A DNA stretch of 64,000 nucleotides. It comes from Lineus longissimus. Taxonomy: Eukaryota; Nemertea; Pilidiophora; Heteronemertea; Lineidae. The notes beneath the pieces are model-generated. The model saw only the letters and a program-made list of their open reading frames with translations. It ran no database searches and had not been told where the DNA came from. The stretch is from assembly GCF_910592395.1 (NCBI RefSeq), contig NC_088315.1, positions 4,590,501-4,654,500 of the forward strand, written 5' to 3'. This document shows, piece after piece, positions 8,046 to 61,300 of this stretch (positions are counted from its first letter, which is position 1; every line of letters starts with the position of its first letter). The position numbers and the translations under genes were made by a program.

Positions 8046-9396
8046 AAAAGAGAAAGCGAAATACATTTCAATATAATATGAATGATCTTGCCAAGCAGGG
8101 GTACTGACCGGGCCCCTCTCGAAGAATACTGCAAACTGGACATCATTATCGCGCTGACAAAGAGATGACGGGCCCTACCAAAAATCATCCAGGAACATGC
8201 ATTGCTTTTGGAAGTTGAATCTGCGCCGATTGTAGAAATCTTCCGGATACTGTACTCTACTCTTTTATTCGAAACATAAAATGCAATAGAGCTATATATA
8301 CTTTACATCATCTGAAGCTGCCAATCACTATCGACAACGAATCGCTTGCAAGCACGTAGTTCCGATTTTCGATATAATGGCAACAAAATTCCGATATCAA
8401 AATTGTTCCGATAGCCATTCTTAAGACCACAGGGGATAGTGTTGATAGAAAAACGAATCCGATCAATGTACGTATGTATATCAAGTAAGCTTTTATGCTG
8501 GAACTATTGATATTAAAACGGGCATCAGTTATACTGGGACAGCTTGGATATACTAAAACACATTGTCTGTAGCTAGCTTTTTGGCCTTTAGGGGCAAACC
8601 ATCCCACTAACCTTTTTATTGAACCCAAGTATTTATAATATGTACTATGATGATTAATTCATTCACGTATCCTTGGGATAGGAAATATATGTTTTGCAGA
8701 TAAACAAAGTCACGAGAAAGAAAGTTATCCCCGGGCAATCAATAGACCTGCATGGACATTTTTCATTCGATTTCTTGAATTGGCGCTTGTGCTTCTTTTA
8801 GGTAGTTTTTATTGGTCCATTATATCAGTGACGGATGAACAATTAAACTGGACAGAACAATGCGATAAACAACAAAACTGTACAGACCGATGTGATAAAC
8901 AATTAAACTGGACAAACCGATGTGATAAACAATTAAACTGGACAGACCAATGTGATAAACAACAAAACTGTACAGACCGATGTGATAAACAATTAAACTG
9001 GACAGTCTTATGTGATAAACAACAAAACTGTACAGATCGATGTGATAAACAATTAAACTGGACAGACCAATGTGATAAACAACACAACTGTACAGATCGA
9101 TGTGATAAACAATTAAACTGGACAGATCAATGTGATAAACAACAAAACTGTACAGACCGATGTGATAAACAATTAAACTGGACAGTCTTATGTGATAAAC
9201 AACAAAACTGTACAGATCGATGTGATAAACAATTAAACTGGACAGACCAATGTGATAAACAACAAAACTGTACAGACCGATGTGATAAACAATTAAACTG
9301 GACAAAGCGATGTGATAAACAACAAAACTGGACAGACCGATGTGCGTGAAAGTCAGAAATTGTACAAAGGAGAAGAAAATATTGAAGTATACTTAC
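8046..9396 (-). other. First intron of the secreted-protein candidate
   Basis: On the minus strand a donor (AACT|GTAAGTAT, G at 9396) precedes an acceptor (ctcttttgcag) eight to nine bases upstream of the ATG at 8033. The intron contains the 30-bp minisatellite. It is inferred from splice motifs and a TATA box placed upstream; it has not been tested against any transcript. Confidence 0.45.
8839..9345. repeat. 30-bp minisatellite, about 17 units, mostly a 60-bp two-type alternation
   Basis: Two related 30-mers alternate: gataaacaattaaactggac... and gataaacaacaaaactgtac.... The higher-order period is 60 bp over most of the array. Because 30 is a multiple of three and the units lack stops, the array is open in the forward frame (LNWTDQCDKQ/QNCTDRCDKQ) and in at least two reverse frames. 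The forward frame has no ATG before the array, so I annotate it as satellite and not as a gene. Confidence 0.93.
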
Positions 9397-18471: not shown

Positions 18472-19477
18472 CTAAGAGTCCTCCGTTGACATGCACATCC
18501 CGCTGGACCACTTCTGAGGCTTGCCATTCTCATCAGCAGGACACTCTGTAGGTAAGAGAATTAGATAAAGCAATCATACTACGATCGTAGGTGATTTCTT
18601 ACCCTTAAAGTTACTTTCTGAAGGTAAGAAAATGATTTAAGCATTAATGATGCAGGGTGTTGAGAAAAAGATGAAAGGGAGTAATTGCACATAGACTTTT
18701 ACCTGTGAATCTTAAGGAAACAGGTGAGATTTTATTCGCAATTTCTATCTTCCAACATTAATCTTAAAACCCTGTTCATTCGCCGTCGCCATGTTGAAAC
18801 AGGAAAAGGAGAGGGAAAAATCTGCACTAACAAAAAACAAAAACAGCTCTCACAAGAGAATAGTTCCATCCATGTACTAGGTCCAAGCCATGACTCTGCC
18901 TTAGCAAAGCTTTTAGTTTTCGTGTTTTATTTCTTCTAACTGATCTAACTCCTAATTGGACATTTCAATTTACACATTGCACTTCAATATACTGTTAAAG
19001 ATTTATTGATACAAAAACTAACTTACTCATTTCATAAAATTTCATTCCATGAGCCTTTTTTCCTTTAATAAGAAACGGTGCCATTTCATCTTTCTCACCG
19101 ACGAAGGGCGCTATCAATTGGCACTTTCCAGCAGAGTTGAAATCCTTGCCTCCGAAGTTAAACCCTTGGCAGCTGGTCTCTATTTCCTCCTTCTGATATT
19201 TGACTTGAAGTAGCTTGCATTTAAGGAAACAGTCGACTCCATTCATGTCTGGATCTTTAGGATTGAGACATTTCCCCCCGTAGTCTTCTGATTTGGTATT
19301 TGGAACTAGCAGTGCTGCACCTTTGAATGTAGGGTTCATCGTTGCCCAACCCTGGATTTCCGCCGGAATGGGTACGAATGGCTTCGTGGCCGCGTACGCA
19401 TCATCGCCCTCTTCAGCAAGCACCAGGTTAGGGCATATCAGGCAGACAACCAAGAATACAACCAAATATGCGTACAT
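18472..19477 (-). CDS. Secreted PAN/apple-like domain protein, two exons
   Basis: Exon 1 (19477-19027) starts at the only in-frame ATG that opens a signal peptide, MYAYLVVFLVVCLICPNLVLA, followed by a mature part beginning EEGDDAYAA. It ends at a GTAAGT donor in phase 1. Exon 2 (18545-18472) follows a cctacag acceptor and adds KCPADENGKPQKWSSGMC and a short Ser/Glu/Asp tail before TAG. The total is 174 residues. Residues about 90-130 carry the PAN/apple arrangement: C-x3-C, then SCQGFNF, then GKCQLI. PAN domains bind proteins or sugars outside the cell. The mature protein has seven cysteines by my count. The in-frame codons upstream of 19477 lack an ATG and are likely 5' UTR. The splice phase joins exactly. 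I am confident in the gene and moderately so in the domain. Confidence 0.72.
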
Positions 19478-19579
19478 CTTGTCTACCTTCACCAAAATAT
19501 CCTCAAGAAATTTTTTGGGAAATATTGTTCCCCGCTCAGCTCTTTCTCTGTTTGATACAAGTCGTTCCAACAAAATTTA

Positions 19580-23780: not shown

Positions 23781-26093
23781 ATGGCCAATCGGTTCTTAAT
23801 CACAGTGCTTGCACTGGCCATGTTACACATCGCCTTAGCCAGACCTACAGGTAAAGTCAAGTTTTCTTTATTGTTTTATTAGAACCAGAGAGGTGCAAGG
23901 CATTCCCTCAAGTTTTCAAGTCAAACTTTCCTTTTACGCAATATTTCTTCAACCTAGTATGACCATTATGATAGAGACTTAGCTTCGGACATGGGTGCAG
24001 AGCGCAAATATATATTTTCAATATCAAACGCAAGTCATTAGGGGCACAAATCGATCCTATTTAAATGTAGCATGTCACGCATTTGCGTTTTTGATTGGGT
24101 GTGTCGGCCGTATCCATGGCAGCAAATGGCCTACCTGGAGCGCATTTCATTGATAAGTCGAAATAAATAGCATGCATAATATTCTTAAAGTTCCTATTTG
24201 ATATCTCCAACGTTTACCCAAATGCTAACACTGCGCGGTAGAAATATATGTCATAGAGTGTCGCGGGGAGAAAGGGTTATGCGCTTTTCATCTTTAAGGT
24301 ATTGAAGGCATTGGGTCTCTAAACCCATATCTTAATTTCCTCACAACGGGAAGAAGACGTTTACCAGGGGACATTTAGAATTCTTAGAACGGTGATATAC
24401 AAGATTTCATGTTACATAGTGTCATTGTAATTGTGCTGGGCTGCGAGTACGCCCCTTATCTAATTTTTGTAAAATATCCGACTTCGGACAAAAAAGTTAT
24501 TTTGTGGCATAAGTGACACATATGTATTAGTTCTCGGCGATCGGTTTTTTTAATCACGTTTCTGGTCGTTTGATTTTTCTGTCCTTGCATGAAGAAAAAA
24601 ATGAGATAACGGATGTTTTGAAACATATGCTGTCAGACCTACTCTACCGAAATGCATACAACTGTTACCTTGCGAACTGCACATTACCAATTTTGCGAAC
24701 TTCATTTTACCGTATTACTTGTGTATGATCCATTTTACCTTATCTGTACGTCTATTTGCCATTGCCGGTGAAGGCCTACCGACCCCTATATGGAAGCTGC
24801 TTCATAGGGTCGATTTTTGAAAGATTTGCCCTGATAACCCTTTGAAAAGACTGTAGGACAATCGGATTTTAGGCCTAGGTGCGAGCAGGCTTTGTTTGAA
24901 GACAATAGAGCGTGTATTGGGCTATAGGCCTGAATCCTTTTTACTGCGAGGTGAGTGGCATAATAACGTGAAGGCAATAGAGCGTGTATTGGGCTATAGG
25001 CCTGAATCCTTTTTAATTTACTGCAAGGTGGGTGGCATAATAACGTGAAGGCAATAGAGCGTGTATTGGGCTATAGGCCTGAATCCTTTTTAATTTACTG
25101 CAAGGTGGGTGGCATAATAACGTGAAGGCAATAGAGCGTGTATTGGGCTATAGGCCTGAATCCTTTTTAATTTACTGCAAGGTGGGTGGCATAATAACGT
25201 GAAGGCAATAGAGCGTGTATTGGGCTATAGGCCTGAATCCTTTTTACTGCGAGGTGGGTGGCATAATAACGTGAAGGCAATAGAGCGTGTATTGGGTTAT
25301 AGGCCTGAATCCTTTTTACTGCGAGGTGGGTGGCATAATAACGTGAAGGCAATAGAGCGTGTATTGGGCTATAGGCCTGAATTCTTTTGACTGCGAGGTG
25401 GGTGGCATAATAACGTGAGGACAATAGAGCTGGTATTGTGCTATAGGCCTGAATCCTTTTGACTGCGAGGTGAGTGGCATAATAACGTGAGGACAATAGA
25501 GCTGGTATTGTGCTATAGGCCTGAATTCTTTTTACTGCGAGGTGGGTGGCATAATAATAATGTGAGGACAATAGAGCTGGTATTGTGATATAGGGCTGAA
25601 TTCTTTTTACTGCGAGGTGGGTGGCAAAATAACGTGAAGACAATAGAGCTGGTATTGTGCTATAGGCCTGAATTCTTTTTACTGCGAGGTGGGTGGCATA
25701 ATAATAATGTGAGGACAATAGAGCTGGTATTGTGATATAGGGCTGAATTCTTTTTACTGCGAGGTGAGGGGTAAAATAACGTAATGATCAATATTCAGAT
25801 ACGTGTAACATTTTTCTGTCTTGAGCTCAAAGTTCCTCTCCGCCACACCAAAAGAACTGTCCCCAGAAAGGCTTCGGAAACTTATTAGAAGCGTATCATT
25901 CCTGACAGGTAAGATTGTGTTGTTACACGAGTCGGAGCATAGATATGGTGGATATGAAAAGATAAGGTCAGTCACATACACGGGGTACGTGTTCATTGTC
26001 TCTACTGGAGACTCAGGGAAACTGAAGTACACAATACAGTACTGCAGTTACATGTTTTACGCATATCGCTGGAACTGCACTTGCCGAGATTAA
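23781..26093 (+). CDS. Candidate small secreted protein, signal exon plus terminal exon
   Basis: Exon 1 (23781-23850) encodes MANRFLITVLALAMLHIALA, a textbook signal peptide, then RPT and a GTAAAG donor in phase 1. About 2 kb downstream, after gaactgtccccag, an open stretch 25867-26093 is in the matching phase and encodes RLRKLIRSVSFLTGKI onward to YRWNCTCRD-stop, basic and with three cysteines near the end. AATAAA follows about 70 bases after the stop. The sum would be 98 residues. The signal exon is better supported than its partner; other acceptors at 25826 or 25833 do not match phase, and further exons could exist. The VNTR would sit inside the intron. The family is unknown. Confidence 0.38.
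24752..25795. mobile_element. Dispersed element, copy 2, expanded by an internal VNTR
   Basis: The left part (24752-24900) matches copies 1 and 3. The right part, which is single-copy in those elements, is here multiplied in tandem. The right end (gaggtgaggggtaaaataacgtaatgat) again matches the other copies. Confidence 0.75.
24899..25790. repeat. VNTR of 72/75/77-bp units, 12 copies
   Basis: The landmark caatagag falls at 24903, 24975, 25052, 25129, 25206, 25278, 25350, 25422, 25494, 25569, 25641 and 25716. The basic unit is 72 bp. Three consecutive units are 77 bp through an inserted aattt, and two are 75 bp through an extra taa. The first units read 'gcgtgtattgggctatagg' and the later ones 'gctggtattgtgctatagg', so the array is a left and a right sub-family. 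Reverse frames are open by repetition only. Confidence 0.93.
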
Positions 26094-43673: not shown

Positions 43674-44235
43674 ACCGGTCCAACAAACTAAACTAACAAG
43701 AATTAAAAAACTTAAGGCATGAAACTTTAAATACCATTTGTACTTTATTTGACCGCATTACAGTTTAAAGTACGACCACTTGGACAGATCTATATGAATA
43801 TACATGTATGCGCATTGACAGACGTCACAGCTATCCATTCCCTTCACGAACCCGTTCTTGCAATACATGTCACACATGACTCTGTTTGACAATCTGAAGA
43901 AAGCAATAGAAAAAAATGTTCTTTTACCTGTCTGCGGTTATTGATCTATTTCCTCAACAACCTTTATGCCGCTGTCTCAAGTGTTGGTCACCAGTTTTCG
44001 AATATCTCCGTCTCTCCAAATGACCCTTGCGACCCCCTTAAATATCTCCGTTCATCTTGCTCCTGGAGACTTGCCCCTGAGTTTCCCATATCAAGTAGCT
44101 CGAAATTCTATGCGACTGGACTTTTTTTTTCGGTGCGCTATTTTTTTTCTCGGTATACATGTACCTGATCAAAAACTGACATGCATGTTTTTAAAAAGGA
44201 AGAGTCCTGATGCCACTACGTGATCAATGCAGTTG
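43674..44235 (-). pseudogene. Relic of a fifth antistasin-type unit (last exon and flanks)
   Basis: This aligns to the 3' part of the intact units (for example 44540-45080) but with many substitutions. The exon-4 equivalent, 43800-43893, keeps the ttcag acceptor and the downstream CDMYCKNGFVKGMD code. It has lost one base shortly after the first cysteine codon compared with all four intact copies, so the reading frame soon hits TGA. A further insertion of about 14 bases disturbs the end. Exons 1-3 are not present, because the next unit begins directly to the right at about 44277. Confidence 0.75.
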
Positions 44236-44602
44236 ATACTGGTTATTTCTGGAAGCACAGTCTTGTTCATAGAGTTCAATCAGCAGTCTCATTAGACCAA
44301 TTTGAACGTTGATCTGCTGTCCGGGAGGCTAGGTAGCTATCGGGATGTACATGAGATTGTGCATCAGGATCATGCATGTTAAGATGCCTCCATAGTTCAT
44401 TAGCTGGGGCTGTTACGAACCTTCGTGATTCATGAAGGCTCGATCAACCTGATTGCTACCGTTATACAATTTTTGTTGTCATCATGTTATGACCTTTATC
44501 AACCTCTGTCGCCAACTTCTGTGATGAAGTACTCAATACACCTGACCGGTTCAACATACTATAAAGATCGACTTATAGAAAAACAAATGTATGATATTTG
44601 AA

Positions 44603-44612
44603 TTTATTTATT
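44603..44612 (-). terminator. Polyadenylation signal, gene A
   Basis: Two overlapping AATAAA hexamers on the minus strand, about 50-60 bases after the stop codon; conserved in position in all four genes. Confidence 0.65.
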
Positions 44613-44662
44613 TGACCACAATTCGTGATGTTACAGTTAAAGGTACGACTACTTGGACAGAT

Positions 44663-46194
44663 CTATGCACATTTACAGATGTCGCAGCCATCCATTCCCT
44701 TCAAGAAACCCTTCTCGCAATACATCCTGCACATGGCTCTGTTCTTACAATCTGAAGAAAAGAATAGAAAACGATGGGTTAGTTCTTTTACCTGTTTGCC
44801 TCTGTCTCAATCGTTGGTCCCCATGTCAGTTTTCGAATGTCTCCGTCTCTCCAAATGACCCTTGCTGCCCTCTCAACTATCTTGGTTCATCGCACCCCCG
44901 GACTTGCCACAGTCTTTATGATTTCCTCTTTCTTTCGCCCATATTGCAGAACCACAAAGTCTTGACCGGTTTTTTTCGGTCTAATACTTTGTTTCTCGGT
45001 ATCTGGCCAAAACATGACATGCATGTTTACTAACTAGAGAAAGAGGTTCTTATACCACTCGAGATCAATGAAGATGCTGGTCTTTTTTCAGTTACCCTAT
45101 CATTGTTGTTTAAGTCGAGTTTTTGGCATGTTCAAAATGGATTTGAAAATTTTTACAACCGCATCGTTCATCAGCCAATTAATGATCACTGCCGACATCG
45201 ATTACTGCTTTTTATTGGATCGAACAGTAACTTACGATCGAGGTTGGCGTTGCATTTGCAGTCAAAGCAGCCGTCGAGTCCTCTTTTGAACCCATTCTTA
45301 CAGCCCATCCTGCACAAAGGGGCATTAGCGCAATCTGAAAAACAAAACAAGAATTTCATGAACACGTGTACATCACTTATGCATATTGCAGTAGAAGATC
45401 GGAATGAGTGACGACTGTTCGCTCGAGATTAAACGGTGGAGGTTGTTGGTGTGAAATTGTTTTACTAAAACCCGTTGCGCTTCACGCTTCTAAAAGTTTT
45501 GCAGTTGCAGCAAAAGAAAAACCAAGCAAATGCCAAAAGACAATGTAACACTTACGGTCGAAATTTGCGTTGCATTTGCACTCGAGACATCCATTCGCAT
45601 CCCTGGAAAAGCCCTTTTCACAGAACATCATGCACATGACGTCATTGCATCCTTTTGGCTGATAACTGCTTGCTGGAATAGGAATTGTAATTTTAATAAC
45701 GAAGTTCGTTTTTCCAAGAGCTCTCTTTGCAACATAAGAAATATACCCTGTATAGCCCGCGGGCAGCCTGATTGGAAGTGGCAGGCCTCCTTTTCAGCCT
45801 TAGACTACCAGGACCCGAAGACCAAACACAGATTACAAGTAACAGGTTGTTGGTTAAACAGGCAGGACACTAGCAAGGTCAGCAGTTTTTGCCGTAAACA
45901 GAATCTATAACAGTTAACCCCCAGCCCCGGCCACCAGTAGTTTTCCTATTGAAGAAACAGGAGGAAGTCGTGAGAAGAATCCGATGCAGCAACGCAGGTA
46001 CACGCTTCGCAAAAGACCAACATCCTCTTCACGGAGGGCTATAAGCGCCATATAATGATGAAGGGCTACATTTCGTCTTATTGCCCAAGGGTAGGGCAAA
46101 GATGGCAATGTCCGATGTTAAACCTGGAATATAAGTTAGTGTGCTTACCATGAGCAGCGACAACAACGAGAGCCAACAAGATCAGGACCTTCAT
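44663..46194 (-). CDS. Antistasin-type inhibitor A, signal peptide and three domains
   Basis: Antistasin-family domains inhibit serine proteases outside cells. Exons: 46194-46149 (MKVLILLALVVVAAH, signal peptide), 45672-45556, 45334-45236 and 44751-44663. All introns are phase 1 with GTAAG donors and yyyycag acceptors; the sum is 351 bases, 116 residues. Each of exons 2-4 encodes one domain with spacing C-x4-C-x3-C-x10-C-x2-C-x-C (for example CEKGFSRDANGCLECKC), which is the antistasin core. The residue after the second cysteine, P1 in leech antistasin-type inhibitors, is Met, Arg and Arg in domains 1, 2 and 3. Domain 2 of this copy has Gly where the other copies have Tyr (CRMGC). TATA lies upstream at 46277-46285 and AATAAA at 44603-44612. 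The protein is intact and very probably expressed. Confidence 0.85.
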
Positions 46195-46276
46195 TTTGAG
46201 CTAGGAGTGTGGATATCCGCGAGTAGTTTAATGTGTCAGAAGAGTTGCAAACTGAAGAGCTAGACCCAGTATCCCA

Positions 46277-46285
46277 ATATATAGC
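46277..46285 (-). promoter_or_regulatory. TATA box, gene A
   Basis: CTATATATT on the minus strand, within the conserved block ggctatatattggg. It lies about 85 bases before the ATG. It is identical in position in all four copies. Confidence 0.65.
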
Positions 46286-46289
46286 CAAC

Positions 46290-48462
46290 TGCCATCATTG
46301 GTATCTGTCAGCCCTGGGACTCATCATCTGCCGTACGACAGACAAAATGATAGAAATCACAAAAACAAGGAAAAAAATAGATTGAATTTGTGCTGACCAT
46401 AATTTGTTTGATGCGTTGGTACACTTGAAACATGTAATTCCTTAAACCTACTTCAGATAATAGATAATACTATCTCATATTTGAAGGTGAGCCATCGCTA
46501 TCATTTTCACTATAATCAGGTCTTATATTTGCTATGTTTGATATTGGCTCCCGTCCTGGAACAAGAGCACCTTAAATGATGCTGACAAAATATTACGACT
46601 TCACTAATATCAACCATTGATCAGGTAGAGGGTAAATTGAACTTTCTCTGAAAAATGGTCATCTGACTGACGGACAGGAGATAATGATATCACCACATCG
46701 TCTATTTGATAACACTGGTGGATGGGGAACATGAACACCAGTGACAGGTGTTACCCCGATTACTTGACTTCGATGATTGGAAGACCTATCTTGTTTAAAT
46801 GATACGCTGCAAAATCCTAGTAGGCTCATCATAAATTGATTAAAAAAAAGTTTGATTATTTTGATTGTAACAAATGAAAGAGCGGACCAATATGCACATG
46901 TATTAAACTCGGGTTAGGTGGTAAGGAAAACGAAAAAAATTTTTACTTATGACAAGATGCCTTTAGAGATGGCAATAATTATAGCCGTGAACCATACGCT
47001 GACTTACTTTAGTATCCCAGAGTTTCTTTTCATACCGGACCATCTTCCAATAACAAGGCACGGACAAATTAAGGGGTTCGAAAGATCAGGGTATACCGAG
47101 AACCGAACTCCACAAATGCTTGGTTTTCAATTTCTTTCACAGCACGTTATGCGCCAAGCCCGATTTGACTCTGTATTAAAGATCGTGACAGCAATTTAAT
47201 TTCAGTGTGTAAAGCTTACAAAGATATTCATCTGGTGTACCTGACACGACGCCCCGGAATAACCGCTGTGGCCGGTGTTAATGGGTCGCGGCCAGAAGGC
47301 AGCTAGATGAATAATACTCTCAAAGAAGCCAATTAGATATATCAACTCATAGAAGACAGTACTTATCAGTGAAATTCAAGGGGCCTTAACGTATTCAAGG
47401 CACGTCAGCGGGTTTTTTGTGGTAGTTTTTTTGTTCTCAAGAGAATTTGAAAAATAGCTATAGTGAGGAGGGTCTTAATAGACTTGAAATCTTATTTTTA
47501 CATGGTACCAAGAAGTTTCTGGTGAGTAGTTTGCTTTTCGGGAGTATGGGCACCATGTTCATAATCTTTTTTTTCATCCGCCAGTTACTGAGAGAGAAAT
47601 GTGTGTTGTATTTCTCCGTCGCCCATCCACTGATTGACCGACCTCGATACCCAACACATAAACAAAACCTGTGACGACAGCGGGAAAGACAGCTTTCTGT
47701 ACTGAGTTAGTGTAGCTTCATGCATGTAATGACGTGTAAGAGAAGGATCGGGATTCTTCCCAGTTGTTGTGATAGTGAAGCTACTGATCCATCAAGCGCA
47801 TCAAACGCAATACCATTGATTATTCCCGATGGTATTTGGCCAAGGCGAGTCTTTAAGCTTCTCGCCGTGTTCACACACGACGCAATATCCAGGAGACTGT
47901 TGACTTATGTCATCGCAATTGAACACGGAGATACCAGCGGAGCGTAAAGGAAGCCTCTGAGGCAATGTGGCGCGAAGAACAGGGCCTTCCCGTGGGGAGA
48001 CGGGCAATATGATTCTGGGCAAAAGTAGAGTACTGCCGTATTTGAAATCGTTACCTGTGAGTACGCCCCTGTCAAGACAAATCACTCGATTACTCCGTGG
48101 CATCAAATATACAAACATTGTTGGGGTTCCTCTTTCCTTTGGTCTATTTTTTGGTACGTTGATAAAGGTAAACATGTCTTCAGGTCTGATTCAACAAGAG
48201 CGTTTTCCCACTCCGGTCCTCACCGCGGTAAAATTAGTTTCGCGGAACCATGTGGTATTACACGTATCCCGTTAGCGGATCACGGAGAACAGAAGTACAT
48301 GTATCATGAAAAACGCCATCCGTGCTGGAGGGTTACTGGGAATTACCACCGATAGGGTCCGAACTTACAGTTACCATGGCGGCGACCGCAATTGAGTTGG
48401 AAAACATTCTAGGAATCAGTTGCCAATTATAGTATTGTTCTTCATCTGTTATCGTTTTTTTT
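46290..48462. other. Spacer upstream of gene A
   Basis: This contains duplicated flank sequence. A conserved minus-strand open frame (48175-47801, 124 codons) and a Kozak-like mini-ORF (48376-48432, plus strand, MAATAIELENILGISCQL) recur in units B and C. No supported gene function. Confidence 0.5.
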
Positions 48463-48793
48463 CAATCAGTAGTCTCATTAGATCAATTTAAACGTTGATC
48501 TGCTGTCCGCGAGGCTAGGTAGCTATCGGGATGTACATGAGATTGTGCATCAGGATCATGTATGTTAAGATGCATCCATAGTTCATTAGCTGGGGCTGTT
48601 ACGAACCTTCGTGATTCATGAAGGTTCGATCAACCTGATTGCTGCCGTTATAAGAGTTTTTTTGTCATCCTGTTACGACCTTTATCAACCACTGTCGCCA
48701 ACTTCTGTGATGAAGTACTCAATACACCTGACCGGTTCAACATACTATAAAGATCGACTTATAGAGAAACAAATGTATGATATTTGAATTTAA

Positions 48794-48799
48794 TTTATT
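48794..48799 (-). terminator. Polyadenylation signal, gene B
   Basis: AATAAA on the minus strand about 50 bases after the stop, in the same place as in the paralogues. Confidence 0.65.
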
Positions 48800-48849
48800 T
48801 GACCACAATTCGTGATGTTACAGTTAAAGGTACGACTGCTTGGACAGAT

Positions 48850-50335
48850 CTATGCACATTTACAGATGTCGCAGCCATCCATTCCCTTCAAGAAACCCTT
48901 CTCGCAATACATCGCGCACATGGCTCTGTTCTTACAATCTGAAGAAAAGAATAGAAAACGATGGGTTAGTTCTTCTACCTGTTTGCCTCTGTCTCAATCG
49001 TTGGTCCCCATGTCAGTTTTCGAATGTCTCCGTCTCTCAAAATGACCCTTGCTGCCCTCTCAACTATCTTGGTTCATCACACCCCCGGTCTTGCCACAGT
49101 CTTTATGATTTCCTCTTTCTTTCGCCCATATTGCAGAACCCCAAAGTCTTGACCGGTTTTTTTCGGTCTAATACTTTGTTTCTCGGTATCTGGCCAAAAC
49201 ATGACATGCATGTTTACTAACTAGAGAAAGAGGTTCTGATACCACTCAAGATCAATGAGGATGCTGGTCTTTTTTCAGTTACCCTATCATTGTTGTTTAA
49301 GTCGAGTTTTAGGAATGTTCAAAATGGATTTGAAAATTTTTACAACCGCATCGTTCTTTATTGGATCGAACAGTAACTTACGATCGAGGTTGGCGTTGCA
49401 TTTGCAGTCAAAGCAGCCGTCGAGTCCTCTTTTGAACCCATTCTCACAGTACATCTTGCACAAAGGAGCTTTAGCGCAATCTGAAAGACAAAACAAGAAT
49501 TTCATGAACGCGTGTACATCACTTGTGCATATTGCAGTAGAAGATCGGAATGAGTGAAGACTGTTCGCTCGAGATAAAACGGTGGAAGTTGTTGGTGTGA
49601 AATTGTTTTTACTAAAGCCCATTGTGATTCACACTTCTAAAAGTTTTGCAGTTGCTGTAAAAGAAAAACCAAGCAAATGCCAGAAATTAAGACAATGTAA
49701 CACTTACGGTCGAAATTTGCGTTGCATTTGCACTCGAAACATCCATTCGCATCCCTGGAAAAGCCCTTTTCACAGAACATCATGCACATATAGTCATTGC
49801 ATTCTTTTGGCTGATAACTGCTTGCTGGAATAGGAATTTCAATTTTAATTACGAAGTTAGTTTTTCATGAGGTCTCTTTGTATCACAAGAAATATACCCT
49901 GTAGAGCCCGCGGGCAGCCTGATCGGAAGTGGCAGACCTCTTTTTCAGTCTTAGACTACCAGGACCCGAAGACCAAACACAGATTACAAGTAACAGGTTG
50001 TTGGTTAAACAGGCAGGACACAAGCTAGGTCAACAGTTTTTGCCGTAAACAGAATTTATAACAGTTAACCCCCACCAGTAGTTTTCCTATTGAAGAAACA
50101 GGAGAAAGTCGTGAGAAGAATCCGATGCAGCAACGCAGGTACACGCTTCGCAAAAGACCAACATCCTCTTCACGGTGGGCTATAAGCGCCATATAATGAT
50201 GAAGGGCTACATTTCATCTTATTGCCCAAGGGAAGGGCAAAGATGGCAAGGTCTGATGTTAAACCTGGAATATAAGTTAGTGAACTTACCATTAGCAGCG
50301 ACAACAACGAGAGCCAACAAGATCAGGACCTTCAT
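48850..50335 (-). CDS. Antistasin-type inhibitor B, signal peptide and three domains
   Basis: Exons: 50335-50290, 49824-49708, 49480-49382 and 48938-48850 (46, 117, 99, 89 bases; 116 residues). Phases and splice motifs match gene A. The signal peptide ends ...VVVAAN where A has AAH. Domain 1 reads CNDYMCMMFC (A: CNDVMC), domain 2 CAKAPLCKMYC and domain 3 CKNRAMCAMYC. The P1-equivalent residues are therefore Met, Lys and Ala. Promoter TATA (about 50418) and AATAAA (48794-48799) are kept. Confidence 0.85.
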
Positions 50336-50417
50336 TTTGAGCTAGGAGTGTGGATGTCCGCGAGTCGTTTAATGTGTCAGGAGAGTTGCAAACTGAAGAG
50401 CTAGACCCAGTATCCCA

Positions 50418-50426
50418 ATATATAGC
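50418..50426 (-). promoter_or_regulatory. TATA box, gene B
   Basis: Same CTATATATT block as upstream of the other three copies. Confidence 0.65.
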
Positions 50427-50429
50427 CAA

Positions 50430-52476
50430 CTGCCATCATTGGTATCTGTCAGCCCTGGGACTCATCATGTGCCGTACGACAGATAAAATGATAGAAATGA
50501 CAAAAACGAGCAAAAAATGGATTGAATTTGTGCTGACTATAATTCGGCTGATGTGATGGTACACTTGAAACATGTGATTCCTTAAACCTACTTCAGATAA
50601 TAGATAATACTATCTCATTATTTGAAGGTGAGCCATCGCTATCATTTTCACTATAATCAGGTCTTATATTTGCTATGTTTGATATTGGTTCCCGTCCGAG
50701 AGCAAGAGCACCTTAAATGATGCTGACAAAATATTACGACTTCACTAATATTAACCTGTTTATATACATTATTGGACAGGCAATTGAAAAGAAATGTAGG
50801 CCTATAACTTGGCTAATTGTGTGCGTTGGTATTAAATGGATACCCCTGAGGCAAAATGTCACTACCATATCATGACTTACTTGAATGATGATGCAAGGTG
50901 CAAAGAAAAGGTGACAACGGCATCGAACACCTTCACAGAAAACAAACGAAGAAAGCCTTTTAAGAATTTTCTTGAAAATGCAGTCTACAATTTTTATTTT
51001 GAAAGGTTTTCTGAATAAACAAATGAATGCTCTTTTGATTATCTAGAAGTAAGCTTCCGAAAGTGATGGTTTTCAGTCATGTGCGTCTATATTACCGCTA
51101 ATACTCCTGCAGTATTTCTTTCTAATTTCGTCCTTGAAAACAATTGATTCATACTTGACCTCTAGTTCCGAATATCACCATTGTATTCAGGCGCTTGGTT
51201 GGAGTCGTAGCTCATGGAGGCCGTTCCGCTGGGCCTTGCGTCCAACTGATTATGAGCTCACTCATGCTTCATCTTTGACCATTTCAATCCCCACCCTGCT
51301 GATTATGGCAAGCAGGACAATTTATCATATGCCATTGCATGATACAATTCTCATCGATCAGGAAAAGGGTAAACTGAACTTTCTCTGGAAAAGGGCCATC
51401 TGAATGACAGACAGGAGATAATGATATCACCACATCGTCTATTTGATAACACTGGTGGATGGGGAACATGAACACCAGTGACAGGTGTTACCCCGATTTC
51501 TTGACTTCGATGATTGGAAGGCCTATCTCGTTTAATATTATAATGAAACGCTTTAAAGATCCAAATAGGCTCATCATAAATTGACTGAGAAAAACTTGAT
51601 TATTTTGATCGTAACAAATGAAAGAGTGTGACTTTCACCACGGATCAATATGCACATCATGACATGTTTTAAACTCGGGTTAGGTGGTAAGGAAAACGAG
51701 AAAAAAAAATTACTGATGACAAGATGCCCTTAGAATATAGCCGTGAACCATACGCTGACTTACTTTTAGTATCCTTATTCTTCCCAGTTGTAGTGATAGT
51801 GAAGCTACTGATCCATCAAGCGCATCAAACGCAACACCATTGATTATTCCCGATGGTATTTGGCCAAGGCGAGTCTTTAAGCTTCTCGCCGTGTTCACAC
51901 ACGACGCAATATCCAGGAGACTGTTGACTTATGTCATCGCAATTGAACACGGAGATACCAGCGGAGCGTAAAGGAAGCCTCTGAGGCAATGTGGCGCGAA
52001 GAACAGGGCCTTCCTGTGGGGAGACGGGCAATATGATTCTGGGCAAAAGTAGAGTACTGCCGTATTTGAAATCGTTACCTGTGAGTACGCCCCTGTCAAG
52101 ACAAATCACTCGATTACTCCGTGACATCAAATATACAAACATTGTTGGGGTTCCTCTTTCATTTTGTCTATTTTTTGGGTACGTTGATAAAGGTAAACAT
52201 GTCTTCAGGCCTGATTCAACAAGAGCGTTTTCCCACTCCGGTCCTCACCGCGGTAAAATTAGTTTCGAGGAACCCAGTGGTATTACACGTATCCCGTTAG
52301 CGGATCACGAAGAACAGAAGTATCACGAAAAACGCCATCCGTGCTAGAGGGTTACTGGGAATTACCACCGATAGGGTCCGAACTTACAGTTACCATGGCG
52401 GCGACCGCAATTGAGTTGGAAAACATTCTAGGAATCAGTTGCCAATTATAGTATTGTTCTTCATCTGTTATCGTTT
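50430..52476. other. Spacer upstream of gene B
   Basis: A 60-codon plus-strand frame (50836-51018, MDTPEAKCHYHIMTYLNDD...) recurs in unit D with frame changes, so it is duplicated flank, not a demonstrated gene. The conserved minus-strand frame is at 52142-51825 and the mini-ORF at 52395-52451. Confidence 0.5.
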
Positions 52477-52824
52477 CAATCAGTAGTCTCATCAGACCAA
52501 TTTGAACGTTGATCACCTGTCCGGGAGGCTAGGTAGCTATCGGGATGTACATGAGATTGTGCATCAGGATCATGCATGTTAATAAGATGCCTCCATAGTT
52601 CATTAGCTGGGGCTGTTACGAACCTTCGTGATTCATGAAGGTTCGATCAACCTGATTGCTGCCGTTATAAGAGTTTTTTTGTCATCCTGTTGCGACATTT
52701 ATCAACTTCTGTCGCAAACTCATTTCTGTGATGAAGTTCGTCAGTATTCCGACTCAATACACCTGACCGGTTCAACATACTATAAAGATCGACAGAAAAA
52801 CAAATGTATGATATTTGAATTTAA

Positions 52825-52830
52825 TTTATT
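52825..52830 (-). terminator. Polyadenylation signal, gene C
   Basis: AATAAA on the minus strand about 50 bases after the stop codon. Confidence 0.65.
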
Positions 52831-52880
52831 TGACCTCAATTCGTGATGTTACATTTAAAGGTACGACTGCTTGGACAGAT

Positions 52881-54454
52881 CTATGCACATTTACAGATGT
52901 CGCAGCCATCCATTCCCTTCAAGAAACCCTTCTCGCAATACATGTCGCACATGACTCTGTTCTTACAATCTGAAGAAAAGAATAAAAAATGAGGGGTTAC
53001 ATGTAGTTCTTTTACCTGTTTGCCTCTGTCTCAATCGTTGGTCCCCATGTCAGTTTTCGAATGTCTCCGTCTCTCCAAATGACCCTTGTTGCACTCTCAA
53101 CTATCTCGGTTCATCACAGCCCCGGTCTTGCCACTGTCCTTGCGTTTCCCTCTTTCTTACACCCATATTACAGACCCCCAAATTTTGACCGGTTTTTTTC
53201 GGCCTAATACTCAGTTTCTCGGTATCTGACCAAAACATGACATGCATGTTTACTAACTAGAAAGAGGTTCTGATACCACTCAAGATCAATGAAGATGCTG
53301 GTCTTTTTTCAGTTGTACAATCATTGTTGTTTTGGACGAGTTTACGGAATAATCAAAATTAACTTGAAAATTTTAACGATCAAATCTTTCATCAGTCAAT
53401 TAGTGATACTTCCGACATCGAATATACATGTACTGCTTTTTGATGGGGTTTTATCAAGAGACATGGAATGATCAGTAACTTACGATCGAGGTTGGCGTTG
53501 CATTTGCAGTCAAAGCAGCCGTCGAGCCCTCTTCTGAACCCATTATCACAGTACATCCTGCACAAAGGAGCTTTAGCGCAATCTGAAAGACGAAACAAGA
53601 ATTACATGAACACGTGTACATCACTTATGCATTTGGCAGGAGAAGATCAGGATCAGTGAAGACTGTTCGCTCGAGATTAAACGGTGGCGGTTGTTGGTGT
53701 GAAATTGTTTTACTAAAACCAGTTGCGCTTCACGCTTCTAAAAGTTTTGACGTTGCTGTAAAAGAAAAACCAAGCAAATGCCAGAAGACATAGTAACACT
53801 TACGGTCGAAATTTGTGTTGCATTTGCACTCGAGACATCCATTCGCATCCCTGGAAAAGCCCTTTTCACAGAACATCATGCACATAACGCCATTGCATCC
53901 TTTTGGCTGATCACTGCTTGCTGGAATAGGAATTGTAATTTTAATGACGGAGTTTTTTTTTTCCAAGAGCTCTCTTTGCAAAATAAGAAATATACCCTGT
54001 AGAGCCCGCGGGCAGCCTGATCGGAAGTGACAGGCCTCTTTTTCAGTCTTAGTCTACCAGGACCCGAAGACCAAACACAGATTACAAGTACAATGTAACA
54101 GGCTGTTGGTTAAACAGGCAGGACACTAGCAAGGTCAGCAGTTTTTTCCTTCAACAGAATTTATAACAGTTAACCCCCAGACCCGGCCACCAGTAGTTTT
54201 CCTATTGAAGAAACAGGAGGAAGGTGTGAGAAGAATCCGATGCAGCAACGCAGGTACACGCTTCGCAAAAGACCAACATCCTCTTCACGGAGGGCTATAA
54301 GCGCCATATAGTTATGAAGGGCTACATTTCATCTTATTGCCCAAGGGAAGGGCAAAGATAGCAAGGTCCGATGTCAAACCTGGAATATAAGTTAGTGAGT
54401 GAACTTACCATGAGCAGCGACAACAACGAGAGCCAACAAAATCAGGACCTTCAT
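52881..54454 (-). CDS. Antistasin-type inhibitor C, signal peptide and three domains
   Basis: Exons: 54454-54409, 53920-53804, 53582-53484 and 52969-52881; 116 residues, frame intact. Domain 1 begins SSDQPKGCNGVMCMMFC, domain 2 is CAKAPLCRMYCDNGFRRG and domain 3 is CKNRVMCDMYCEKGFLKG. The P1-equivalent residues are Met, Arg and Asp; an acidic P1 is unusual for a trypsin-like target. TATA and AATAAA elements are conserved. Confidence 0.85.
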
Positions 54455-54535
54455 TTTGAGCTAGGAGTGTGGATGTCCGCGATTAGTTTAATGTGTCAGG
54501 AGAGTTGCAAACTGAAGAGCTAGACCCAGTATCCC

Positions 54536-54544
54536 AATATATAG
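54536..54544 (-). promoter_or_regulatory. TATA box, gene C
   Basis: CTATATATT block conserved with the paralogues. The upstream flank beyond about 54660 is rearranged relative to A and B, so distal regulation may differ. Confidence 0.6.
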
Positions 54545-54549
54545 CCAAC

Positions 54550-56261
54550 TGCCATCATTGGTATCTGTCAGCCCTGGGACTCATCATCTGCCGTACGACA
54601 GATAAAATGATAGAAATGGAAAAAAAACAAGCAAAAAAATGATTGAATTTGTGCTGACTATAATTTGGCTGATGTGATGATACAAGGTACAAAGAAAAGG
54701 TGACAACTGCATCGGACACCTTCACAGAAAACAAACGAAGAAAGCCTTTTAAGAATTTTTTTGAAAATGCAGTCTAGAATTTTTATTTTGAAAGGTTTTC
54801 TGAATAAACAAATGAATGCTCTTTTGAGTATGTAAGTAAGCTTCCGAAAGTGATGGTTTTCAGTTATGTGCGTCTATATTACAGCTAATACTCCTGCAGC
54901 AGTTTCTTTTTAATTTCGTCCTTGAAAACAATTGACTCATACTTGACCTACTGGTTCCGAATATCACCATTGTATTTAGGCGCTTGGTTGGAGTCGTAGC
55001 TCACGGAGGCCGTTCCGCTGGGCCTTGCGTCCAACTGATTATGAGCTCACTCATGCTTCATCTTTGACCATTTCAACCCCCCACCCTGCTGATTATGGCA
55101 AGCAGGACAATTTATCATATGCCATTGCATGATACAATTCTCATCGATCAGGAAAAGGGTAAACTGAACTTTCTCTGGAAAAGGGCCATCTGAATGACGG
55201 ACAGGAGATAATGATATCACCACATCGTCTACTTGATAACACTGGTGGATGGGGAAAATGAACACCAGTGACAGGTGTTACCCCGATTACTTGACTTCGA
55301 TGATTGGAAGACCTATCTCGTTTAATAATGATACGCTTTAAAGATCCAAATAGGCTCATCATAAATTGACTGAGAAAAACTTGATTATTTTGATCGTAAC
55401 AAACGAAAGAGTGTGACTTTCACAACGGATCAATATGCACATGTATTAAACTCAGGTTAGGTGGTAAGGAAAACGAAAAAAAAATTACTTATGACAAGAT
55501 GCCCTTAGAAATGGCAATAAATATAGCCGTGAACCATACGCTGACTTACTTTTAGTATCCTTATTCTTCCCAGTTGTAGTGATAGTGAAGCTACTGATCC
55601 ATCAAGCGCATCAAACGCAACACCATTGATTATTCCCGATGGTATTTGGCCAAGGCGAGTCTTTAAGCTTCTCGTCGTGTTCACACACGACGCAATATCC
55701 AGGAGACTGTTGACTTACGTCATCGCAATTAAACACGGAGATACCAGCGGAGCGTAAAGGAAGCCTCTGAGGCAATGTGGCGCGAAGAACAGGGCCTTCC
55801 TGTGGGGAGACGGGCAATATGATTCTGGGCAAAAGTAGAGTACTGCCGTATTTGAAATCGTTACCTGTGAGTACGCCCCTGTCAAGACAAATCACTCGAT
55901 TACTCCGTGACATCAAATATACAAACATTGTCAGGGTTCCTCTTTCATTTTGACTATTTTTTGGTACGTTGATAAAGGTAAACATGTCTTCAGGTCTGAT
56001 TCAACAAGAGCGTTTTCCCACTCCGGTCCTCACCGCGGTAAAATTAGTTTCGCGGAACCCAGTGGTATTACACGTATCCCGTTAGCGGATCACGGAGAAC
56101 AGAAGTATCATGAAAAACGCCATCCGTGCTAGAGGGTTACTGGGAATTACCACCGATAGGGTCCGAACTTACAGTTACCATGGCGGCGACCGCAATTGAG
56201 TTGGAAAACATTCTAGGAATCAGTTGCCAATTATAGTATTGTTCTTCATCTGTTATCGTTT
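54550..56261. other. Spacer upstream of gene C
   Basis: Duplicated flank with the conserved minus-strand frame 55985-55611 and the plus-strand mini-ORF 56180-56236. Nothing else recognised. Confidence 0.5.
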
Positions 56262-56578
56262 CAATCAGTAGTCTCATCAGACCAATTTGAACGTTGATCT
56301 GCTGTCCGGGAGGCTAGGTAGCTATCGGGATGTACATGAGATTGTGCATCAGGATCATGCATGTTAAGATGCCTCCATAGTTCATTAGCTCGGGCTGTTA
56401 CGAACCTTCGTGATTCGTGAAGGTTTTTTTGTCATCCTGTTGCGACATTTATCAACTTCTGTCGCAAACTCATTTCTGTGATGAAGTTCGTCAGTATTCC
56501 TACTCAATACACCTGACCGGTTCAACATAGTATAAAGATCGACTAATAGAAAAACAAATGTATGATAATTTAATTTAA

Positions 56579-56584
56579 TTTATT
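56579..56584 (-). terminator. Polyadenylation signal, gene D
   Basis: AATAAA on the minus strand about 50 bases after the stop codon. Confidence 0.65.
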
Positions 56585-56634
56585 TGACCTCAATTCGTGA
56601 TGTTACAGTTAAAGGTACGACTGCTTGGACAGAT

Positions 56635-58267
56635 CTATGCACATTTACAGATGTCGCAGCCATCCATTCCCTTCACGAAACCCTTCTCGCAATACATCGC
56701 GCACATGACTCTGTTCTTACAATCTGAAGAAAAGAATAGAAAACGAGGGGTTAGTTCTTCTACCTGTTTGCCTGTCTCAATCGTTGGTCCCCATGTCAGT
56801 TTCGAATGTCTCCGTCTCTCCAAATGACCCTTGCTGCCCTCTCAACTATCTTGGTTCATCACAACCCCGGTCTTGCCACATTCTTTGCGTTTCCCTCTTT
56901 CTTCCACCCATATTACAGACCCCAAAATTTTGACCATTTTTTTTCGGTCTGATACTCAGTTTCTCGGTATCTGACCAAAACATGACATGCATGTTTACTA
57001 ACTAGAGAAAGAGGTTCTGATACCACTCAAGATCAATGAAGATGCTGGTCTTTTTTCAGTTGTACAATCATTGTTGTTTTGGACGAGTTTACGGAATATT
57101 CAGAATTGACTTGAAAATTTAACGATCACATCTTCCATCGGTCAATTAGTGATCACTTCCGACATCAAATATACATTTACTGCTTTTTGATGGGGTTTTC
57201 AAGAGACATGGTATGATCAGTAACTTACGATCGAGGTTGGCGTTGCATTTGCAGTCAAAGCAGCCGTCGAGTCCTCTTCTGAAGCCATTCTCACAATACA
57301 TCATGCACAAAGGAGCTTTAGCGCAATCTGAAAGACGAAGCAAAAATTACATGAACCCGTGTATACATCACTTGTGCATATTACAGTAGAAGATCGGAAG
57401 CAGTGAAAGACTGTTTACACCACCCGTTTCCCGCCTGCGGTTACTTCGCGAGAACTTAGAGTTTCAAAATACCCTCTAGTACTGTGAAGGGAAGCGGGGA
57501 GGAATAATCAGAAGATGCCAGCCGTGCGAGTGGTTAGTTGTTATTTACAAAATTATCCGAGCTTCGTTTTCGCAGCATTGATCTATTTCGCAATCTCTAC
57601 GGCTCAAAAACATCACAAGAGAATATCCCCGAATTCACATCAGACACCACCGCGGAAATCCAGCCCATTCGCTCAAGATTAAACGGCAGAGGTTGTTGGT
57701 GTGAAATTGTTTTTGCTAAAACCCGTTGCGCTTCACATTTCTCAAAGCTTTGACGTTGCAGTAAAAGAAAAACCAAGCAAATGCCAGAAGACATAGTAAC
57801 ACTTACGGTCGAAATTTGTGTTGCATTTGCACTCGAAACATCCATTCGCATCCCTGGAAAAGCCATTTTCACAGAACATCATGCACATATAGTCATTGCA
57901 TCCTTTTGGCTGACTACTGCTTGCTGGAATAGGAATTGAAATTTTAATTACGAAGTTCGTTTTTTCATGAGGTCTCTTTGTATCACAAGAAATATACCCT
58001 GTATAGCCCGCGGGCAGCCTGATTGGAAGTGACAGGCCTCTTTTTCAGTCTTAGACTACCAGGACCCGAAGACCAAACACAGATTACAAGTTACAGGTTG
58101 TTCGTGAAACAGGCAGGACACTAAAGCAAGGTCAGCAGTTTTTGCCGTAAACAGAATCTATAACAGTGGCAAAGATGGCAAGGTCCGATGTCAAACCTTG
58201 AATATATGTTAGTGTGCTTACCATGAGCAGCGACAACAACGAGAGCCAACAAGATCAGGACCTTCAT
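56635..58267 (-). CDS. Antistasin-type inhibitor D, signal peptide and three domains
   Basis: Exons: 58267-58222, 57923-57807, 57327-57229 and 56723-56635; 116 residues, frame intact. Domain 1 reads SSSQPKGCNDYMCMMFCENG, domain 2 CAKAPLCMMYC and domain 3 CKNRVMCAMYCEKGFVKG. The P1-equivalent residues are Met, Met and Ala, so this copy lacks the basic P1 seen in A-C. Intron 2 carries a unique insert of about 260 bases and intron 1 a deletion relative to the paralogues; splice sites are untouched. The TATA box is at about 58349-58357 and AATAAA at 56579-56584. Confidence 0.85.
57413..57671. other. Unique insert in an intron of gene D
   Basis: Between gtgaaagactg and gctcaagattaaacgg, which are adjacent in A-C, unit D has about 260 extra bases with no match to the other units. 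No terminal repeats or target-site duplication were obvious. The origin is unknown. Confidence 0.7.
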
Positions 58268-58348
58268 TTTGAGCTAGGAGTGTGGATGACCGCGAGTAGT
58301 TTAATGTGTCAGGAGAGTTGCAAACTGAAGAGCTAGACCCAGTATCCC

Positions 58349-58357
58349 AATATATAG
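58349..58357 (-). promoter_or_regulatory. TATA box, gene D
   Basis: CTATATATT block conserved with the other three copies. Confidence 0.65.
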
Positions 58358-58359
58358 CC

Positions 58360-61300
58360 AACTGCCATCATTGGTATCTGTCAGCCCTGGGACTCATCAT
58401 GTGCCGTACGACAGATAAAATGATAGAAATGATCACCAAAACAAATAGATTGAATTTGTGCTGACTATACTTCGCCTGATGCGTTGGTACACTATAGAAA
58501 CATGAAATTCTCTCAACCTCCTTCAGATAAAAGATAATCCTATCAGATTTTTGAAGGTGAGCCATCGGTATCTCACTATTGTAGGTCTTATATTTACTAT
58601 GTTTGATATCGGCTCCCGTCCTGGCACAAGTTGTTTCATCAATATACTCCAACTCTCGATATTTTGTGTATGAGGTACGAGTATCAAAATCTGAATCTCA
58701 GGATGATTGGCTCCGTGAACGAAAATGTAAGTCGATGCCGAAGGTCGTGCACGGAGTTTTAAAGAGGTCCTGTAGTGACACAGAGAAATGATATGAGAAC
58801 AACGGGCCCCTCCTGTACGAATTTACCAAAGTAACCTGTTTTTATACATTGATTGTGGCTTAGGAAATGGAAAAAGAAAAATATATAACTTGGCTAATCG
58901 TGTGCGTTGGTATCAAATGGATACCCTCGAGACAAGATGTCACTACCATATCATGACTTACTTGAATGATGATACAATGTGCAAAGAAAAATTAACAGCG
59001 GTATCCGACACCTTCACAGATAAAAAAAGCCTTTTAAGACTATTTTTTGAAAATCTAGTCTTAGAATTGTTGGATAAATTTCTGAATGAACAATGGTTTC
59101 TTATTACATGTATAAGTAAGCTTCCGAAAGTTATGGTTTTTAGTTATGTGCGCCTATAATACCGGTAATACTCTTGCAGCAGTTTTTTTTAAATTTCGTC
59201 CTTGACAATAATTCATTCATACTGGTTCCGAAAACCACCATGTATTCAAGCGCTTGGTTGGAGTCGTAGCTTACGGAGGTCGTTCCGCTACTGGTCTTCC
59301 GTCCAACTGATTATGAGCTCTTTGACCATTTCAACCCCCACCCCGCTAATTTTGGCAAGCATGACAATATCATATGCCATTGCATGATACAATGTACATC
59401 TTTCTGCTTCGTTTTCCTGAACAATGGTCAACTTCTCATCGTCAGGTAGAGGGTAAATTGAACTTTCTCTGGAAAAGGGCCATCTGAAAAACGGACAGGA
59501 GATAATGATATCACCACATCGTCTTTTTGATAACAATGGTGGATGGGGAAAATGAACACCAGTGACAGGTGTTACTCCGATTACTTGACTTCGATGATTG
59601 GAAGACCTATCTTGTTTGAATGATACGCTATAAAATCCAAGTAGACTCATCATAATCATAAATTGACTAAGAACGAATTTGATTATTTTGATTGTAACAA
59701 ATGAAAGAGCGGAACAATATGCACATGCATTAAACTCGGGTAAGGTGGTAAGGAAAACGAAAAAAAAATGTTATTTATGACAAGATGCCCTTACTGATTT
59801 TACTCCGTATTAAAGATCGTGACAGCAATTTATTTTCAGTTTGTTGCAAAATATTCATCTGGTGTACCTGACACGACGCCCCGGAATAACCGCTATGGCT
59901 GGTGTTAATGGGTCGCGACCATGAGCAGCAACATGAATAATAATCTCAAAGAAGCCAATTGACTGGCACTTGCTACATCGTTGGAATATGTCAACTCACA
60001 GAAGACAGTAGTTATCAGTGAAAGTCAAAGGGGCCTATCCATATTTTAGGTACGTCAGCGCGTTTTTTGTAGGGTTTCTTTTGTTCTCAAGAGAATTTGA
60101 AAGTTTGACTTTTTATCACGAAAACTAAAGACAGATACCGTCTGAGGTCGTCCCTAAATGTATTGTTTCCTGGTGATAGGTTGCTTCTCGGGAGTATGCG
60201 GCCATCAGATTTTTCACTGAGAGCAGCTACTATAAGCAAATTTGGGCTGCAAGAAACTCCTGCCAAATCGCTCACGTAAAGACGTTACCTATAACCTCTT
60301 TCATCGTACTATGGTCTTCTTTCGTCTTTTTCTTTCTCACGCTGAAGATATTATAGATTGCGCAACTAAATTTGTGCAAGCAAATACGATATCAGTAATA
60401 GCAACAATAGATCCATTGTTGGTAGTCGGCTAAAAAGAGGTTTTAACCTTTGAAGTTACAGGAGTTATTCGATACGAAAAATGCCGTACTTTGTCGGTGC
60501 TCCCGATATTGGACAGAATAAGGCTAGGTAAAATTTCACAAATTATTCTCGTACGAAATATTTTTTAAATCGGAGCGGGGCCCGCTTTTATTTTTTATTT
60601 TTATTGATAACGTACATGTACGTCGGATTCAACAGATTCAAAGGAAAATACGCCGACACCACGGCCTAAAGACATTATGCCCCCTCCTCCGAGGTACATT
60701 AGATGTGTCGCAGCCTTACTCAGGGATCATTCCAAAAAATTGAGAGAATAATTCTAGTTCCGGTTATAACGCGAGGAGGAAATGTGGAGGATTTCAAGCA
60801 AGCAAAGTGCCACTTTACGATAACTCATCTTTTAAAATCATCATATTATACGTAGGCGACTCGTAAACGGTTTCGCCTCGAGAAGATCGGATTTACAGGC
60901 AACAATGTAGAAAATAAATAGATACTTGATTTTTTTCATATCAGTATGAAATCTGTTGACATGATATTCTGTTGTCCTTTGTACCATCCCGGCGTCGCTT
61001 CCCAGATTGAATGCAAACCTGATAAACATTCTTAATACTGACAAACTTTGTAAATACTGCTTGTTTTTCTAGAGTTACAATGCCAAGGGCTAACGTCTAA
61101 ACGTCAGGGTTGTAATTTGTTTACGGAATGAACTGTAAGCTTTATAGTTCGACTGCTCAAAAGACATTGGTATATTTGTCAAGCTAAATGTAAATTTTCT
61201 GATTACAAAGAAACTACCTCGATTTCTTTCCGTATCAGAACGTATGTTACTTTCATGGGGTGCGTTTAGTTTGTTTTGACAGGAATGGTGATGCGTGTAT

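Follow-up and report, generated by a model that had tools for sequence, protein, structure and literature searches.

What has been kept and what has changed in a run of duplicated inhibitor genes is the question raised by a locus of the nemertean Lineus longissimus. The window (the whole 64-kb stretch of DNA analysed, C8:4590501-4654500 of the genome) holds a tandem array of four intact genes for small antistasin-type proteins, all on the minus strand. We consider, at a probability of about 0.72, that the array is a local tandem expansion of secreted, three-headed, antistasin-type serine-protease inhibitors, in which the scaffold is fixed while specificity diversifies. Secretion, inhibition and specificity of the products are predictions from sequence: each six-cysteine module, one per phase-1 exon, would offer a canonical loop to a serine protease, and the residue at position P1 of that loop would determine which protease fits each head. 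Any ecological role is held with lower confidence than the reading as a whole, and blocking the proteases of predators, prey, microbes or the worm itself would be a guess.

All four genes share one architecture. A first-pass annotation of this DNA had listed four intact genes, without naming a strand, with exons of 46, 117, 99 and 89 nucleotides (nt), open frames and a product of 116 residues, and each of these features recurs in all four copies. Every exon junction is GT..AG, all introns are phase 1, and the coding sequence of 351 nt gives 116 amino acids and a stop codon, with no internal stop in any gene. The TATA element claimed for each gene was found as TATATA at a constant 89 nt upstream of the ATG in 4/4 genes, and an AATAAA or ATTAAA motif lies less than 250 nt past each of the four stop codons. 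Exon 1 encodes a hydrophobic stretch, judged by eye to be a putative signal peptide ending in AHA or ANA across the first junction, while exons 2, 3 and 4 encode one antistasin module apiece. The copies are indeed tandem and alike, but to call them near-identical was too strong, as proteins of any two genes differ at 9-13 of 116 positions (only about 89-92% identity). Of the extent first given to the array, 43674..60230, the right edge needs correction, as self-alignment puts it near 60102; at the left edge there is a partial fifth copy. The features are as follows:

44275..60102, minus strand: extent of the four-unit array by self-alignment, units starting at about 44275, 48461, 52475 and 56260
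43768..43893 (approximate), minus strand: relic of a fifth copy, a lone exon 4 and the beginning of its 3' flank, with broken frame and displaced stop
46278..46283, minus strand: TATATA of gene 1, 89 nt upstream of the ATG
50424, 54543 and 58356, minus strand: TATATA of genes 2, 3 and 4, same offset
46149..46194, minus strand: gene 1 exon 1, ATG at 46194, signal peptide by eye
45556..45672, minus strand: gene 1 exon 2, domain 1, P1 Met
45236..45334, minus strand: gene 1 exon 3, domain 2, P1 Arg
44663..44751, minus strand: gene 1 exon 4, domain 3, P1 Arg, stop
50290..50335, minus strand: gene 2 exon 1
49708..49824, minus strand: gene 2 exon 2, domain 1, P1 Met
49382..49480, minus strand: gene 2 exon 3, domain 2, P1 Lys
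48850..48938, minus strand: gene 2 exon 4, domain 3, P1 Ala
54409..54454, minus strand: gene 3 exon 1, product identical to record P0001
53804..53920, minus strand: gene 3 exon 2, domain 1, P1 Met
53484..53582, minus strand: gene 3 exon 3, domain 2, P1 Arg
52881..52969, minus strand: gene 3 exon 4, domain 3, P1 Asp
58222..58267, minus strand: gene 4 exon 1
57807..57923, minus strand: gene 4 exon 2, domain 1, P1 Met
57229..57327, minus strand: gene 4 exon 3, domain 2, P1 Met
56635..56723, minus strand: gene 4 exon 4, domain 3, P1 Ala

The product of gene 3 is identical (116/116) to the NCBI/UniRef record P0001, 'antistasin-like isoform X3 [Lineus longissimus]', and the family is therefore already known and partly annotated. 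NCBI and UniRef name this protein 'isoform X3' and 'isoform X2', which suggests that the copies were grouped as isoforms and would suit a single complex gene, the four copies being alternative transcripts of one transcription unit. This is very unlikely, since each copy has its own TATATA, a full exon set, a stop and a polyadenylation motif.

The antistasin-type domains claimed for these proteins were borne out by Pfam Antistasin (PF02822), which scored 57.1, 57.6, 56.9 and 61.0 bits against a cut-off of 21.2, with three stretches in each of the four proteins (E 1.5e-16 to 3e-15); chance or a wrong family is ruled out by these scores. A pattern search places the six-cysteine core C-x(4,5)-C-x3-C-x10-C-x2-C-x-C at three sites in gene 1, and the same core cysteines are present in the domains of genes 2-4 and invariant across the alignment. 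A profile search of the PDB returned antistasin (E 2.5e-8), guamerin (4.4e-4), bdellastasin (8.2e-4) and hirustasin (0.01), while the gene 1 protein alone matched solved antistasin weakly (E 0.22). These four leech proteins, which we take to be MEROPS I15, have in common with the array the PF02822 core, six C-terminal cysteines and the loop C-P1-x-x-C. They differ in that leech modules carry ten cysteines and five disulfides (PMC6265900), whereas each array module has the C-terminal six only, and in that the array has three modules per protein and Met at the position after P1 (P1').

P1 can be placed by alignment. In both alignments to antistasin (structure 1skz), the single-protein one and the profile, Arg34 (numbered by the chain positions printed for 1skz) falls on the first residue past the second cysteine of the module (residue 63 in gene 1). 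Factor Xa cleaves antistasin at Arg34 (PMC7277884), and the P1 of poecistasin has been inferred at Arg27, which directly follows a Cys in the printed sequence (PMC6265900). The array loop reads C-P1-Met-(mostly Tyr/Phe)-C, and over domains 1, 2 and 3 the P1 residues are M-R-R in gene 1, M-K-A in gene 2, M-R-D in gene 3 and M-M-A in gene 4. P1 sets specificity in inhibitors of this kind, with Lys or Arg directed at trypsin-like, Tyr, Phe, Leu or Met at chymotrypsin-like, and Ala or Ser at elastase-like proteases (PMC7277884); guamerin, an elastase inhibitor, has Met at its predicted P1 (PMC6265900), as has domain 1 of the array genes. In exon 4, genes 1 and 2 are alike except for 2/89 nt, both within the P1 codon.

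The modules could instead serve a non-canonical role, such as binding matrix, an ion channel or a microbe, with the variable loop tracking another partner. They are without the N-terminal half of leech antistasins (compared with PMC6265900), Asp is an odd P1 for a canonical inhibitor, and the mucus antistasins of Lineus sanguineus are described as having no anticoagulant motifs, roles outside blood-feeders being called unclear (excerpt of PMC10674772). We nevertheless think this quite unlikely, because the reactive loop aligns residue for residue with proven inhibitors and change is centred on P1, the specificity residue.

How the copies have diverged was assessed against their introns. Variable sites make up 28/348 coding columns and 147/952 intron columns (Fisher P 4.5e-4), and coding indels number 0, whereas the 22 gap intervals counted over 962 intron bases would predict 8.0 (P 3e-4). 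Expectations for codon classes were set from the intron rate, with 155 changes over 952 intron columns free of gaps. The 18 cysteine codons have 0 changes (8.79 expected, P 1.5e-4) and other non-loop codons 16 (39.08 expected, P 2.5e-5), while the loop codons P4-P4' have 15 (8.79 expected, P 0.035) and the three P1 codons 6 (1.47 expected, P 0.004). Purifying selection on the coding parts, as first proposed, thus holds for frame and scaffold, but it is not even: variable sites fall 9/9/10 over codon positions 1/2/3, the pairwise ratio of nonsynonymous to synonymous differences per site (pN/pS) is 0.55-1.28, and P1 codons change faster than introns. These three lines together rule out even purifying selection. 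The pN/pS values arise partly because the three P1 codons changed 6 times, and low coding variation is reconciled with a pN/pS near 1 because the codon classes differ.

The excess at P1 survives removal of any one of the four genes (P 0.004-0.047). Placing all changes at random gives P 9e-5 when the full 116 codons are used and 6e-4 when the 82 mature non-cysteine codons are, and a fixed-P1 permutation that keeps per-codon counts gives P 0.008. None of 912 overlapping intron triplets attains the 4 changes at P1 codon 96, and three random intron triplets sum to 6 changes with a probability of 0.003. Of the six codons that changed at least twice, five belong to the P4-P4' loop (P 0.002).

Several points weigh against diversifying specificity. 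P1 was spotted by eye ahead of testing, there are only four linked, tract-exchanging copies, which are not independent samples, and the P1 of domain 1 is constant in all four genes. Variable amino-acid positions are weakly enriched in the loop (5/15, P 0.10 for a narrow loop; 8/15, P 0.03 for a wider one). Any-phase scans of the domains at widths 1, 3, 5 and 8 gave P 0.22, 0.28, 0.18 and 0.11, none significant, which weakens any strong statistical case for the loop as a whole. Leech antistasins are reported to show little or no positive selection, one alignment having 0 positively selected sites and the other 5, of which three fall within the region of the signal peptide (PMC3631404), which argues against generalising the P1 result. 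Ordinary duplicates under partial constraint, amplified for dosage and with P1 differences due to neutral drift and gene conversion rather than adaptation, would sit well with these scans, with the even spread over codon positions, with a pN/pS near 1 and with the mosaic copies described below. That account is unlikely, given the missing coding indels, the strong constraint on cysteine and other non-loop codons, and a rate of change at P1 above that of introns. Diversifying specificity on a fixed scaffold is the reading we prefer, and a stronger version of it is possible though doubtful: an arms-race cassette in which multi-base changes and gene conversion exchange the P1 codons of fixed three-domain scaffolds, so that the worm would secrete several three-headed inhibitors aimed at different proteases, one of them bearing an unusual head with Asp at P1.

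Identity among the units is mosaic. In intron 3, genes 1 and 2 are 97.7% identical and genes 3 and 4 95.0%, with cross pairs at 87.7-89.5%, while intron 1 is without this grouping; the pattern would fit unequal crossing-over and gene conversion. Self-alignment of the units also confirmed that large blocks have been gained and lost in the spacers between them, as first noted. One spacer block (47753-48626, 51777-52643 and 55563-56425) varies in only 44/878 alignment columns over three units, and the 100 columns from 48352 to 48451 are identical in all three; it is possibly a regulatory stretch or the product of recent exchange. The block contains a minus-strand open frame (47801-48190 and equivalents), which was rejected as a gene: its unit-3 copy has no Pfam match, substitutions fall 10/12/16 over codon positions, and its first part is out of register in unit 2. 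Neither the array nor its proteins have a match in the 10 kb on either side of the window, and a continuation of the array beyond it was rejected on that ground. Across the whole genome (391,118,348 bases), a search with the gene 3 protein listed 28 matches (E up to 10; genome-wide counts are lower bounds), and 13 of them sit in the array, as exons 2-4 of the four genes (12) and the lone exon (1). There is no further close exon among those listed, and the best match outside the array has 66% identity over one exon, at C5:4.05 Mb.

Relatives are widespread in a looser sense. With a cut-off of E <= 0.01, a profile search returned 86 proteins. They include P0018, a second protein of L. longissimus, as well as proteins of Mytilus trossulus, Hydra vulgaris, Hydractinia and Hypsibius, and many metagenome proteins. 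The first-pass suggestion of a lineage-specific family is plausible and weakly tested: only the L. longissimus record exceeds 50% identity over more than half of the query, the other relatives among the 86 matches falling below that mark, and among the matches listed for the genome itself no dispersed relative exceeds 66% over one exon. The inhibitor or defence role suggested with it is likewise a prediction. The triple minimal-domain protein singled out at the same time is present in the array and is not unique to it, as the gene for P0018 (C5:10.918 Mb) also has a signal-like start, three minimal domains and four exons with phase-1 junctions by eye. P0018 differs in being 46% identical to gene 3, in its P1 residues (Ser, Arg, Met) and in that the surrounding 9.9 kb showed no second copy. 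Further dispersed modules have P1 Gln and Leu (C5:4.05 Mb), Met and Met (C19), Arg (two C9 copies) and Met, Met and Leu (C2). The C9 copies are two near-identical antistasin exons 4.6 kb apart (5.136 and 5.141 Mb), apparently a second tandem pair. An open frame of 1201 residues at C17:15.52 Mb holds numerous antistasin modules, with 9 matches listed by Pfam and 11 by pattern within 3 kb.

By pattern, 153 modules were read from 79/85 homologs, a set that left out the array record P0001 and was not weighted for relatedness; 143 have the 10-residue spacing, and 138 of these are distinct. Over the 138, entropy is 3.10 bits at P1, only P5 being higher (3.14), against 1.64 at P1', where 99/138 have Met. 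A variable P1 beside a near-constant P1' therefore looks general in the subfamily.

Fixed cysteines with a diversifying P1 are a pattern already known from the potato type II inhibitors of Solanaceae, which are likewise multi-headed and tandemly duplicated, with conserved cysteines and positive selection at P1 (PMC2259423). Those inhibitors belong to a separate family, in plants, and selection there is backed by codon-model tests (PMC2259423). The antistasin domain, tandem arrays and P1 hypervariability in inhibitors are thus each known already, and a search of the literature by title found nothing on this array. The array amounts to a natural experiment on inhibitor specificity, in which proteins with about 90% shared residues and differing predicted P1 sets allow direct comparison of targets.

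In the same phylum, proteomics has found antistasin-like proteins in the mucus of Lineus sanguineus and Kulikovia alborostrata and the proboscis of Antarctonemertes valida and Cephalothrix cf. simula (PMC10674772, PMC11768458, PMC9132205, PMC12846013). One L. sanguineus antistasin-like peptide was detected in the seawater control but was absent from the mucus sample, and it has been suggested that nemertean antistasins may hinder digestion in predators (PMC10674772). Neither a gene array nor an analysis of P1 is given in the excerpts of these papers; toxin families of L. longissimus other than the antistasins have been mapped to the genome, and the supplementary figure list has no antistasin codon analysis (excerpt of PMC10674772). 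The array suggests what the antistasins of these mucus and proboscis proteomes may be selected for.

Scans of the 64-kb window for tRNA genes and Rfam families found nothing. Three other features of the window were recorded:

18995-19576, minus strand: 193-codon open frame holding a Met-led, secreted-looking, cysteine-containing protein, with no Pfam match over the cut-off
24897-25782: 12 tandem copies of a 72-base unit, with a long minus-strand open frame
8834-9344, plus strand: 30/60-base tandem repeat inside a long open frame, encoding CDKQLNWTD-like repeats

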